A DNA stretch of 21,645 bases, taken from positions 1-21,645 of the IMG/VR virus record IMGVR_UViG_3300030107_002505. One strand, given 5' to 3'. The DNA comes from a virus. This document shows, one piece after another, positions 3,404 to 20,172 of the stretch (its first letter is position 1; every line of letters begins with the position of its first letter). The notes under the pieces are model-generated. The model saw only the letters and a list, made by a program, of their open reading frames with translations. It was not told the origin of the DNA and did not search any database. Made by a program: the position numbers and the translations under genes.

Positions 3404-3771
3404 TAGTAAGTTGCAGCTCCTCCAACATTAGGGACACCTGCATTAGCAGTGTCACCACCTGCAATGTTTCCACCTATACTTCCTTGAGGTGTAGAGCCTG
3501 CTTGTGTAGTTGCAGTAGGATCTTTCTTCCTATCACGCATTAGCTTGGCATTCTTACTCGCTTCTGTTTGTCCTTTTTTAGTTTCGTCTTTTAACTCCTG
3601 GTCTTCTGTATCAAACGACTGATTACCAGTAAGTTTTGTAGCTGGTCTTGCGTTGATCTGAGGAGTCGTATCACCTCCTTGGTTTTTATTGCCTCCAAAT
3701 AATCTATTAGCTAGAGACGGTAATATCATCGGTGCGATGAATTTTAATACGGGTATGGCAGGTCCACACAT
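3403..3771 (-). CDS. Putative virion or head-tail assembly protein (T7 gp7.3 position)
   Basis: A 122-residue protein with a short hydrophobic N-terminus (MCGPAIPVLKFIAPMILPSL), a charged middle rich in Lys, Asp and Glu, and a Gly/Ala/Thr-rich C-terminus. Many T7-like phages carry a small protein beginning MCGP just before the portal; T7 gp7.3, in the equivalent position, is a virion protein of similar length and composition. That supports a structural role but is an inference. Both ends show TAATG overlaps (with the 63-aa gene upstream and the portal downstream), so the four late genes form one translationally linked chain. Confidence 0.7.
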   Translation of the reverse strand: MCGPAIPVLKFIAPMILPSLANRLFGGNKNQGGDTTPQINARPATKLTGNQSFDTEDQELKDETKKGQTEASKNAKLMRDRKKDPTATTQAGSTPQGSIGGNIAGGDTANAGVPNVGGAATY

Positions 3772-17691: not shown

Positions 17692-18033
17692 TCAGAAGTT
17701 ATTAGTAAAGAATGCAAAGCCATTGCTGTACTTAACCATGAAATAATCAAAGGTAAGTTCACGAGACCAGACAGACTTCCAATCAATGTGAGATTGTATA
17801 AACATAGGGAGATTGGATTCACTTAAGTAACCGCAATCATCACATAATTGTTCAGCAAACTCAGCACCTGATTGATACTGTCCATGATATGCTTCTTCAA
17901 ACTGACTAACTGTTTCTATTCCATAGTCCATGAGTTCTTGAACAAACTCATTGGATAATGTATCAATCATACCAGTATCTTCTATCTCTTTCTTAAGAGT
18001 TTCAACTGGTGATGATAGAATAGTTAATGACAT
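17692..18033 (-). CDS. ArdA-like antirestriction protein (short)
   Basis: A 113-residue acidic protein whose second half follows the ArdA pattern: FEEAYHGQYQSGAEFAEQL (about residues 45-63), then CDDCGYLSE, a hydrophobic helix, HIDWKSVWSREL and a final aromatic strand (FDYFMVKYSNGFAFF). ArdA proteins are DNA mimics that block type I restriction enzymes. The first domain of the typical ~165-residue ArdA is missing. Its place among the first transcribed genes equals that of T7 gene 0.3 (Ocr), another DNA mimic. A hairpin 15 nt before ATG 18033 and the tRNA-Asp lie directly upstream. Confidence 0.75.
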   Translation of the reverse strand: MSLTILSSPVETLKKEIEDTGMIDTLSNEFVQELMDYGIETVSQFEEAYHGQYQSGAEFAEQLCDDCGYLSESNLPMFIQSHIDWKSVWSRELTFDYFMVKYSNGFAFFTNNF

Positions 18034-18061: not shown

Positions 18062-18065
18062 CCAA

Positions 18066-18137
18066 CGGTCTATGCGAGGATCGAACTCGCATTACCAGCG
18101 TGACAAGCTGACGTCCTAACCATTAGACGAATAGACC
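18066..18137 (-). tRNA. tRNA-Asp(GTC)
   Basis: A complete cloverleaf on the minus strand: acceptor GGTCTAT/ATAGACC with discriminator G, D arm GTCT...GGAC, anticodon arm TCAGC-TTGTCAC-GCTGG with anticodon GTC, and T arm GCGAG-TTCGATC-CTCGC. CCA is not encoded, as is usual in cyanobacteria. It lies inside the early transcript between the KTSC gene and the ArdA-like gene, so its release would cut that mRNA. It may offset low Asp supply for phage translation. Confidence 0.93.
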
Positions 18138-18210
18138 AATAAAGAATGGACTTATACTCAATGATTAATGTATGAAAGCGTGTCATACCCATTGGATGCC
18201 ATAGTATTAA

Positions 18211-18229: not shown

Positions 18230-18475
18230 TTATACAAATGAAGGAAGAGATACTTCACTACGTGTAGCATTTACACAGTTATTATTAATCCAGAATCCAA
18301 GGGATACATCAGGATTAAATAATACATTAGCAATAGCTCTCTTGCTTACATTTCCATACTCGTATGTGTCACCACCTTTAAAGGTAGCTATTACTTTCTG
18401 TGCTAATAGATCCACACTAAGTGATTCAATAGCAGCAGATGTACGAGATGGAACGTTGATAAACATGTTGAACAT
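18230..18475 (-). CDS. KTSC-domain protein
   Basis: An 81-residue protein (ATG 18475; ATG 18466 also possible). The KTSC pattern is clear: SAAIESLSVDLLAQKVIATF then KGGDTYEYGNVSKRAI and SLGFWINNN, a small beta-rich domain found in phages and bacteria, sometimes fused to lysyl-tRNA synthetase-like or RNA-binding proteins. Its molecular role is unknown; nucleic-acid binding is suspected for the family. It is in the earliest gene block, so a host-takeover role is plausible. Confidence 0.75.
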   Translation of the reverse strand: MFNMFINVPSRTSAAIESLSVDLLAQKVIATFKGGDTYEYGNVSKRAIANVLFNPDVSLGFWINNNCVNATRSEVSLPSFV

Positions 18476-18510: not shown

Positions 18511-18520
18511 AATGAAAGAG

Positions 18521-18537
18521 TGAGGATTTGATCCTCA
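18521..18537 (-). other. TGAGGAT hairpin after the first early gene
   Basis: TGAGGAT-TTG-ATCCTCA, seven perfect pairs, then CTCTTTC on the minus strand, just after the stop of the 70-aa gene. Possible 3'-end or attenuator hairpin. Confidence 0.5.
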
Positions 18538-18546
18538 GCATCACGC

Positions 18547-18759
18547 TTACAAGCTGTACTCTTCCCAGTATTCCTGAAGTAACTCAGGATCTGTGATCTC
18601 TTGACTGAGATCCTCTACATAAGTATGAGATCCAAGACCTGAGCTTGTATAAGCCCAGTCTTTCTCTAGTATATCGAGCACTAACTGAGAGCAGTTAGGT
18701 GATACTAAAGCAACAGGATTCTCACATCCTTGTGGAGTGAATGGAATTAATTTTTTCAT
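18547..18759 (-). CDS. Acidic first early protein (70 aa)
   Basis: MKKLIPFTPQGCENPVALVS at the start, then a helical, strongly acidic C-terminal half (SQEITDPELLQEYWEEYSL). I choose ATG 18759 because upstream in-frame codons run through the tRNA-like fold. It is the first gene after the early promoter at 19065-19093. An early acidic protein could mimic DNA, but nothing specific shows this. Family not recognised. Confidence 0.65.
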   Translation of the reverse strand: MKKLIPFTPQGCENPVALVSPNCSQLVLDILEKDWAYTSSGLGSHTYVEDLSQEITDPELLQEYWEEYSL

Positions 18760-18780: not shown

Positions 18781-18835
18781 AGTCGTGGTCAGGATTCGAA
18801 CCTGAAGGTGTTCCCTATTTCCGTGAGTCACGACT
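18781..18835 (-). ncRNA. Minimal tRNA-like fold: acceptor stem and T arm only
   Basis: On the minus strand AGTCGTG pairs with CACGACT (seven pairs), and inside is a perfect T arm, TCAGG-TTCGAAT-CCTGA with the canonical TTCGA loop. Only 23 nt lie between the 5' acceptor strand and the T arm, too few for D and anticodon arms. It cannot decode. It resembles the minihelix recognised by RNase P and by tRNA 3'-end enzymes, or it is a decayed tRNA. It lies 21 nt before the first early gene, where other early genes have a hairpin. Confidence 0.7.
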
Positions 18836-19058
18836 CTGTTCATGTCACATGTTGTTGATGCAACCCATCAACTAGCCTCCAGCTCATTTCATACGCTGCT
18901 GGATCAGCGGAGCTAGCTGCTTGTCGGTTGCTAGCGGCACCATCGATGAAGCACTGGGCGGCTTATTTGTGAGAGGCTATTGACTCTGATTGAATCTTGA
19001 GAACTCTCTCACCCTCTAACGAGAGTTCGATAGATCTCAATCTTCAAAGAGTCATATA
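18836..19058 (-). ncRNA. Structured leader RNA of the early transcript
   Basis: A transcript from the promoter at 19065-19093 would start near 19058 and run about 300 nt before the first gene. It folds into adjacent domains: a long hairpin 19054-18981 (TGACTCT/AGAGTCA, GATTGAATC with one bulge, and GAACTCTC/GAGAGTTC around a 12-nt loop); a branched domain closed by TAGCCTC/GAGGCTA (18979-18973 with 18879-18873) containing GCTAGC/GCTAGC and CAGC/GCTG hairpins; then GTTGATG/CATCAAC (18872-18854). Only one base separates the first two domains and none the next, before the tRNA-like fold. There is no convincing ORF. Folds were found by eye. Confidence 0.65.
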
Positions 19059-19064
19059 GAATCT

Positions 19065-19093
19065 ATGATACCTTAGTGGATCGGTTAGGTCAA
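19065..19093 (-). promoter_or_regulatory. Strong sigma70-type early promoter
   Basis: Minus strand -35 TTGACC (19088-19093), 17-nt spacer, -10 TATCAT (19065-19070): five of six matches in each box. The motif ATCCACTAAGGTAT (19068-19081) spans the spacer and -10. It is well placed to drive all early genes by host RNA polymerase, like the A promoters of T7. Confidence 0.75.
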
Positions 19094-19154
19094 GTAACAA
19101 ATGATACAAGTCCAGCTGAGACAGGGCGAGAAGCCAGTCATACCAAGAGTCATT

Positions 19155-19195
19155 AGCATTGCTTATCAATCGAATGGTCAACGATAAGCAAAGCT
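19155..19195. repeat. Twelve-pair inverted repeat upstream of the early promoter
   Basis: AGC-a-TTGCTTATC and GATAAGCAA-a-GCT with a 15-nt spacer; nine uninterrupted pairs, then one mismatch and three more. It could be an operator for a dimeric regulator or an RNA hairpin. The spacer contains a second TTGACC on the minus strand without a good -10. Confidence 0.65.
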
Positions 19196-19199
19196 TAAG

Positions 19200-19262
19200 G
19201 TGCGGCGACAGATCGCGAGAGAGTGACGCGTGCGTGAAACGACCTACCGCGTGCGCCTGACG
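19200..19262. other. GC-rich patch with 21-nt-spaced CGCGTGCG repeats
   Basis: About 60 nt of high GC (GCGGCGACAGATCGCGAG, GACGCGTGCG, CCGCGTGCGCC) in an AT-rich genome. CGCGTGCG occurs at 19227-19234 and 19248-19255, 21 nt apart, two helical turns. No ORF. It lies where the genome ends are expected, so a packaging or terminal-repeat signal is a candidate role. Confidence 0.5.
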
Positions 19263-19293: not shown

Positions 19294-19324
19294 CAGTGGA
19301 TATTCAATCCACTGCGGGTTTTTT
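19294..19324 (+). terminator. Plus-strand intrinsic terminator facing the late genes
   Basis: CAGTGGAT-ATTCA-ATCCACTG, eight perfect pairs, then CGGG and TTTTTT. The T run lies on the plus strand, opposite to every gene. It abuts the stop of the 73-aa gene. On the minus strand the hairpin is followed only by ATTATTA, so it may serve weakly both ways. Confidence 0.65.
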
Positions 19325-19547: not shown

Positions 19548-20172
19548 CTCGGTTGAATTGTTCAATACCAGCAGTCGTTAAGACGTGATCTGTCATTTTA
19601 TCGAAGACACCAACAGGAACAGTACATATATCAGCATCTTGTCCAAAAGAGTTCTCTACAGACTGAACATCCCTTAAAGAAGCCGCTAAAACCTTAGTTT
19701 TTATTGATTTTAAATTGTATAGATGACTAATTGCACCTATCAAACCAATACCATCAACAGAATTATCGTTTAACCTCCCAACAAAGGGAGAAACGTAGGT
19801 AGCACCTGCCATTGAGCATAATATTGCTTGACTTACACTGAAAATAAGGGTCATATTCACTCTTATCTGTATATCTGATAATCTTTTACAAGCTTTTAGC
19901 CCATCAACAGTACAAGGAAGCTTGATTGTTGTTTGATCTCCATAAGTACGATGATGTTCCACACCATATTTAAAGAAGTCAGCCTCATTATCAGCTACCA
20001 TTTCCATGCTGATATCAGGTATACCCATATCTACTAATTCTTTGTAGACATCTTGGGGATTCCTACCACTCTTTTTAATAAGGGTAGGGTTAGTGGTTAC
20101 ACCAGAAATAAAACCAGATGAGAGCCTCTGCTCTATCTGTTGCACATCTGCTGTATCTAAGAATAATTGCAT
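19534..20172 (-). CDS. talC: Transaldolase-like protein (TalC/MipB type)
   Basis: A 212-residue short transaldolase of the TalC/fructose-6-phosphate aldolase group, a (beta/alpha)8 barrel. Seen are MQLFLDTADVQQIEQ, GVTTNPTLIKKSG, ISMEMVAD, TTIKLPCTVDGLKAC with the Schiff-base Lys near residue 84, VNMTLIFSVSQAIL and the SPFVGRLND phosphate-binding loop. It moves a dihydroxyacetone unit in the pentose phosphate pathway; in cyanophages it is thought to push host carbon toward NADPH and ribose for nucleotides. The ATG starts one base after the stop of the 49-aa membrane gene. Confidence 0.96.
   Translation of the reverse strand: MQLFLDTADVQQIEQRLSSGFISGVTTNPTLIKKSGRNPQDVYKELVDMGIPDISMEMVADNEADFFKYGVEHHRTYGDQTTIKLPCTVDGLKACKRLSDIQIRVNMTLIFSVSQAILCSMAGATYVSPFVGRLNDNSVDGIGLIGAISHLYNLKSIKTKVLAASLRDVQSVENSFGQDADICTVPVGVFDKMTDHVLTTAGIEQFNRDARG

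Follow-up and report, generated by a model that had tools for sequence, protein, structure and literature searches.

A covarying 5' hairpin and recurrent tRNA-like structures at the head of the early operon of P-SSP7-like cyanopodoviruses, with a predicted role in early RNA processing

Among the viruses that infect the dominant phototrophs of the ocean, cyanopodoviruses are some of the commonest, and their host lacks Rho. The locus described here, almost 280 nt of structured RNA predicted at the start of the first early transcript of such a virus, lies in a stretch of 21,645 nucleotides, referred to below as the window, which is part of a virus record of 24,082 bases (IMGVR_UViG_3300030107_002505) and was identified as a P-SSP7-like cyanopodovirus with a T7-type RNA polymerase about 69% identical to the P-SSP7 counterpart. 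An integrase, a transaldolase, a T7-type large terminase and a tRNA-Asp are also encoded, and all main genes of the window are carried on the minus strand.

The leader (18781–19058, minus strand) is placed directly upstream of the first early gene and follows an early promoter (19065–19093, minus strand) with the hexamers TTGACC (19093–19088) and TATCAT (19070–19065) separated by 17 nt. In most relatives about 8 nt separate the -10 hexamer from stem P1 of a rod hairpin, and 15–18 nt separate it from helix P2, so that the early transcript is predicted from sequence to start a few bases before, or within, this hairpin. Downstream on the same strand come a 70-aa ORF of unknown function with no Pfam match (18547–18759), a second ORF for a conserved protein of unknown family (18230–18475; start inferred from relatives), a complete tRNA-Asp (GTC) found by ARAGORN, Rfam and a both-strand scan (18065–18138), and, about 32 nt after the tRNA end, the gene of an ArdA-type antirestriction protein (17692–18033; PF07275, E 1e-6).

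An earlier note, made from the letters of this DNA alone, had proposed that the leader is a stably folded functional RNA that starts the first transcript, holds no ORF and matches no described family. The minus strand of 18781–19058 folded at -94 kcal/mol, compared with -74.3 ± 4.7 kcal/mol for 200 dinucleotide shuffles (z -4.2), and none of the 200 shuffles was as stable. No conserved ORF was found in the leader. Rfam 15 returned nothing at or above the gathering threshold for the hairpin or the tRNA-like structures, and a literature search, outside which most subscription journals lay, gave no earlier description of tRNA-like or antitermination elements in cyanophages. The proposal of a functional leader RNA is strongly supported.

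The 5' part of the leader is a type 1 rod hairpin of about 76 nt (18980–19055, minus strand), recognised by conservation and covariation, in which about 28 pairs with small internal loops form a variable basal stem (P1), a near-invariant UUGAAGAUUGAG...UUCAAUCA core and an apical purine/pyrimidine helix. A hairpin had been claimed here before, and both the covariance model and compensatory changes showed it to be real: the window scored 80 bits (E 3e-15) with a model whose alignment includes the window itself. In an alignment of 22 distinct sequences 98.4% of cells were paired and 90 cells carried double changes (23 in shuffles), and sliding the partners by 1–3 columns reduced pairing to 37–49%. 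In a wider alignment of 60 distinct sequences, split at fixed landmarks, the first six positions of P1 were each paired in 93–100% of sequences; pairing in P1 was mostly kept via several different Watson-Crick pairs, and the core was almost invariant. Relatives had been gathered via a neighbouring protein and three DNA patterns. The second pattern gave at least the matches counted here, and more relatives exist; exact-pattern sampling biases the conserved positions of the hairpin. The covariation in P1 is not a product of the search, since the patterns were anchored in the apical part and P1 lay outside them. Kinship among the sequences inflates the shuffle-based significance, a weakness of which the slid-partner and strand controls are free.

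Nearly all of the relatives gathered have this hairpin where the early region begins. It heads the early transcript of more than 150 IMG/VR stretches and also occurs in isolates, and every isolate match fell in the early leader region. Scores of 75–90 bits were obtained for S-SBP1, S-CBP4, S-CBP3, S-TIP37, S-RIP2 and the fosmid S45-C4 (AP013538), with lower scores for P-SSP2 (42 bits) and P-SSP3 (37 bits) and a weak match in P-SSP7 (336–413; 21.5 bits, E 0.055). One relative (L015) had a tRNA-like structure yet no rod hairpin. None of the 84,980 species genomes searched, bacterial and archaeal, matched the exact type 2 core pattern, and the model had no match in 31 Prochlorococcus genomes, a search set without a positive control; a host origin of the hairpin was rejected on these results. 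Four pattern hits (L029, L063, L071 and L086) were set aside because they look like chance or coding matches.

The hairpin may also assist annotation of the early region, as it is now covered by opposite-strand protein genes in S-CBP4 (S-CBP4_0001; L100 257–652, minus strand) and S-CBP3 (S-CBP3_0015; L099 704–934, minus strand), which are probably not genes. Two further features were noted within it. The apical helix has two mutually exclusive registers, formed by tandem pyrimidine and purine copies (for example L060/L007 as opposed to L041), and the differences between L041 and L060 are compensated in either register, suggesting a hairpin that is bistable or rearranges co-transcriptionally. 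In the motif UUGA-N-G-R-U ... UUCAA-Y-C-A the R and Y positions covary perfectly among the 60 aligned sequences (G with C, A with U), although in the nested rod they are not partners of each other; a tertiary contact or an alternative pairing is possible.

The middle domain (18836–18979, minus strand) is shared by the window only with L002/L003 and L015, and a scan for further copies found none beyond L002/L036 and L015/L341. Here the earlier reading did not hold, as the seven-pair closing stem that it described (UAGCCUC/GAGGCUA) is absent from the minimum-energy fold, which uses UCACA/UGUGA instead, and neither version is kept in the two relatives that share the domain. Compensatory changes were seen in two of its inner hairpins, in three sequences only.

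The leader ends in a tRNA-like structure (TLS1; 18781–18835, minus strand) composed of a 7-bp acceptor (AGTCGTG/CACGACT), a GG-bearing spacer and the T-arm TCAGG-TTCGAAT-CCTGA, with 23 nt between acceptor and T-stem. The T-arm/acceptor minihelix claimed for these positions was upheld by full pairing and covariation. All 108 cells were paired (100%) in an alignment of nine sequences including the window, 30 of them with double-sided change; 9 of 12 pairs covaried, and none of 500 shuffles reached either the paired percentage or the covariation score. The eight relatives have quite different acceptor sequences and keep every pair. The window copy scored 52.9 bits (E 8e-11) with a model whose alignment again contains it. 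In a second, larger class a short hairpin replaces the D- and anticodon arms, and 96.6% of its cells were paired, with 50 double-change cells compared with 14 in shuffles; classes A/B and C/D were aligned apart.

A second structure in the window (TLS2; 18514–18565, minus strand) has the acceptor GGAAGAGT/ACTCTTTC and the arm TGAGG-ATCAAAT-CCTCA, and gave an Rfam tRNA match at 18513–18565 of 23 bits, below the cut-off of 29. It is overlapped by the 3' end of the first early ORF and stands 38 nt before the second. The acceptor stacked on a 5-bp T-stem with a 7-nt TTCRANN loop, which characterises tRNA-like structures, is complete in TLS1, and TLS2 has the stems with an altered loop (ATCAAAT). 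Neither forms the full cloverleaf of a tRNA gene, and in the window ARAGORN called only tRNA-Asp; it reported no tmRNA there, and a tmRNA was rejected. The common plan of these mini-tRNAs is an acceptor stem, a short GG-bearing hairpin or spacer and a T-arm without an anticodon arm. A clear D-like stem is missing from the window copy, and the acceptor is followed by sequences such as -UUG or -UUU, not by CCA. The model had no match in one Prochlorococcus genome, again without a positive control among the genomes searched. A further class of about 80 nt, with a long extended arm (CTATACAAA...TTTGTATAG) and AGATAG/CTATCT acceptors, was seen at L048 530, L064 608 and elsewhere (coordinates relative to the hairpin).

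The recurrence and strand of these elements were then compared across leaders. Only part of the leaders contained them: the strict form occurred in 38 of 128 (0–1 in shuffles) and the T-arm alone in 66 of 128 (about 1 in shuffles). Known phages with such structures include S-SBP1 (two, with acceptor boundaries at about 587/633 and 1324/1371), S-RIP2, S-CBP3, S45-C4 (two), S-TIP37, P-SSP10 and P-SSP7 (601–652; E 1e-8), and P-SSP2, P-SSP3 and P-GSP1 by pattern. When both strands of 140 distinct loci were counted, with mini-tRNAs and true tRNA-Asp pooled, 64 sense and 0 antisense elements fell in the first kb 3' of the hairpin, and the following 4 kb held 22 sense elements, again with no antisense one (86 and 0 within 5 kb); the 633 kb upstream of the hairpin held 2 sense and 6 antisense elements. 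A both-strand scan of the whole window found exactly three, TLS1, TLS2 and tRNA-Asp, all early and on the minus strand. The tRNA-like fold is therefore one of a series between early genes, beyond the mere 3' end of an RNA of about 280 nt as first described.

Placement was read in the window, S-SBP1, S-RIP2, S-TIP37, P-SSP10 and AP013538. The structures often overlap the previous stop codon by 6–19 nt and often end 11–51 nt upstream of the next start (21 nt for TLS1 and the first ORF), and some in P-GSP1, AP013538 and P-SSP7 are exceptions that sit 90–431 nt before the next annotated start. This arrangement fits the geometry that would be expected if their ends become mRNA ends.

Leader alignment also revealed a boxA motif, GAACCTYGACAACTKCATA, which was matched at no fewer than 16 of 19 positions in 105 of 134 leaders and in 0 of 2680 shuffles, at a widely varying distance from the hairpin. 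The rRNA leader of Prochlorococcus contains the same core, GAACCTAGACAACT, 347 nt before 16S, and it recurs as GAACCTTGAAAACT between tRNA-Ala and 23S. Of 31 Prochlorococcus genomes, 26 carried the core in one to three copies, frequently as two sites about 2.3 kb from each other, which marks the rRNA operon. In the host, too, the rrn boxA follows a hairpin, which the phage hairpin does not resemble. The position of boxA 3' of the hairpin in most relatives points to RNA polymerase modification. In the window no boxA was recognisable (the best sites matched 11–12 of 19 positions, the chance level), nor was one in P-SSP7, P-SSP2 or P-SSP3, and antitermination in this genome is thus an extrapolation from relatives. 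The rrn antitermination complex of E. coli requires boxA for its formation, and boxA alone suffices for it (PMC10250234). Separately, a contig of Prochlorococcus AG-363-C20 (L231) has a perfect boxA-like site at 1989–2008, followed by a second, partial copy, in a stretch where no rRNA was found; it is possibly a non-rRNA boxA in a host.

Taken as a whole, we consider it probable, at roughly 60%, that the first transcript, made by the host polymerase, opens with a structured 5' leader encoded here and that tRNA-like elements then punctuate the early operon as sites for RNase P and RNase Z. From the observed structures, covariation, strand, position and recurrence of the elements, we infer cleavage at the mini-tRNAs by these enzymes and an effect of hairpin and boxA on the polymerase. 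With transcription starting at, or a few bases before, the rod hairpin, the 5' end would be closed in a helix and shielded from 5'-end-dependent decay. In most relatives, where a host-type boxA follows, the hairpin would then play the boxB-like role in an antitermination signal of rRNA type, by which the host polymerase is modified. The first tRNA-like structure, about 200–300 nt downstream, would be a target of the host enzymes that mature tRNAs: RNase P would cleave on the 5' side of the acceptor stem, and the cut beyond the acceptor would fall to RNase Z or to 3' exonucleases. Cuts at TLS1 would free the leader and leave the first mRNA with a new 5' end, 21 nt ahead of its start codon, and later mini-tRNAs and the real tRNA-Asp would act likewise between the following genes, splitting the polycistronic early RNA into mRNAs. 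Counting against this reading are the lack of a recognisable boxA in the window and in P-SSP7, P-SSP2 and P-SSP3, the relative L015 with its tRNA-like structure but no rod, the leaders in which no mini-tRNA was found, the elements that end far from the next annotated start, and the missing CCA and clear D-like stem. On the evidence of these sequences, the virus probably uses host tRNA-cutting enzymes for RNA processing. Among the three roles first suggested for the leader (stability element, host-factor decoy, or regulatory RNA released at the tRNA-like fold), processing emerged as the best option, and the decoy gained no specific support. A more tentative extension, possible if short of probable, is that the early operon is disguised as a host rRNA operon, its boxB/boxA-like leader capturing the host Nus-factor antitermination complex and its mini-tRNAs recruiting RNase P and RNase Z.

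The tRNA-like structures could alternatively be decaying tRNA genes, surviving by chance or as points of integration or recombination in an otherwise ordinary leader. In favour of this, the region also holds complete tRNA-Asp genes, an integrase is encoded by the phage, and the similarity of the window to several relatives begins or ends at these structures. We nevertheless regard this as highly improbable, as the pairs of acceptor and T-stem covary in elements that have no anticodon arm, which argues that the pairing itself is selected; in addition, several copies occur per genome on the sense strand only, and their sequences vary freely among genomes, unlike an att core. It is also unlikely that the rod is an RNase III processing site with the mini-tRNAs as 3' or 5' stabilisers that RNase P does not cut. 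T7 early mRNA is cut by RNase III, and the leader hairpin of this T7-like early transcript, with its roughly 28 pairs and small internal loops, would suit that enzyme, the T7 sites (R0.3 to R1.3) being irregular rod hairpins on the early transcript of a phage of the same family (Autographiviridae). However, the likeness ends with the rod shape, as the hairpin here is one site only, placed at the very 5' end, and its core sequence is conserved; this near-invariant apical core exceeds the usual needs of RNase III, and the T-loops and acceptor stems would be left unexplained.

Two other explanations concern the hairpin itself. As a 5'-end stabiliser only, it would block 5'-dependent attack by RNase E, which would be useful because P-SSP7 infection raises host RNase E, while antisense RNA is said to protect the transcripts of the phage (PMC9692554). 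The predicted start site at the hairpin agrees with this, but any stable hairpin would suffice, and the invariant core, the second apical register and boxA would need another reason; we find a purely stabilising role doubtful. A better case can be made for a cis-acting antiterminator RNA or, with boxA, a site of rrn or nut type, the mini-tRNAs forming a separate processing layer, and we hold this to be possible, if short of probable. It is favoured by the promoter-proximal place, the invariant core and the downstream boxA of 105 of 134 leaders, which is close to the host GAACCTAGACAACT. HK022 put RNA, whose put sequence forms two stem-loops, acts directly on RNA polymerase; the phage hairpin resembles it in position only. 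The rrn boxB-boxA and lambda nut sites likewise join a promoter-proximal hairpin to a boxA, as in most relatives, but the phage hairpin is larger and unrelated to these, including that of the host rrn leader, its spacing to boxA is variable, the window has no recognisable boxA, and no N-like protein was identified.

Punctuation by tRNA-shaped elements on the sense strand between genes is found in mitochondria and in bacterial tRNA-mRNA operons. The phage elements differ in being mostly minihelices that lack an anticodon arm and in belonging to the early operon of a phage; their cleavage is predicted. Known RNase P substrates include pre-tmRNA, phage M3 RNA, phage C4 RNA and polycistronic mRNAs, and the model and phage-derived ones share with the mini-tRNAs the acceptor and T-arm as the minimal recognised shape (PMC11143913), whereas the elements described here form a repeated, covarying family within one operon of a single phage group and lack CCA. 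The tRNA-like domain of tmRNA has the same acceptor, GG-bearing D-like loop, T-arm and missing anticodon arm; unlike tmRNA, the mini-tRNAs carry neither a tag reading frame nor CCA and occur in several copies per transcript. The promoter hairpin and the mini-tRNA set constitute two new, searchable RNA families, and the latter suggest that tRNA punctuation, best known from mitochondria, has been reached by a lytic phage via degenerate tRNAs.

Several smaller features were recorded around the early region. Upstream of the promoter, a block at 19134–19222 shares 75% identity with the left end of S-SBP1 (172–259), has weak similarity to S-TIP37, and is perhaps a terminal repeat or an upstream promoter element. 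A strong terminator-like hairpin at 19294–19314 separates the transaldolase gene region from the early promoter. The closest relative (L003) has a tRNA-Leu (TAA) at 3595–3681 (minus strand), some 370 nt upstream of the hairpin and on the strand opposite to it. In Syn5 (EF372997) the tRNA-like model matched outside the early region, at 19840–19887 (E 7e-4), between the scaffolding and major capsid genes.
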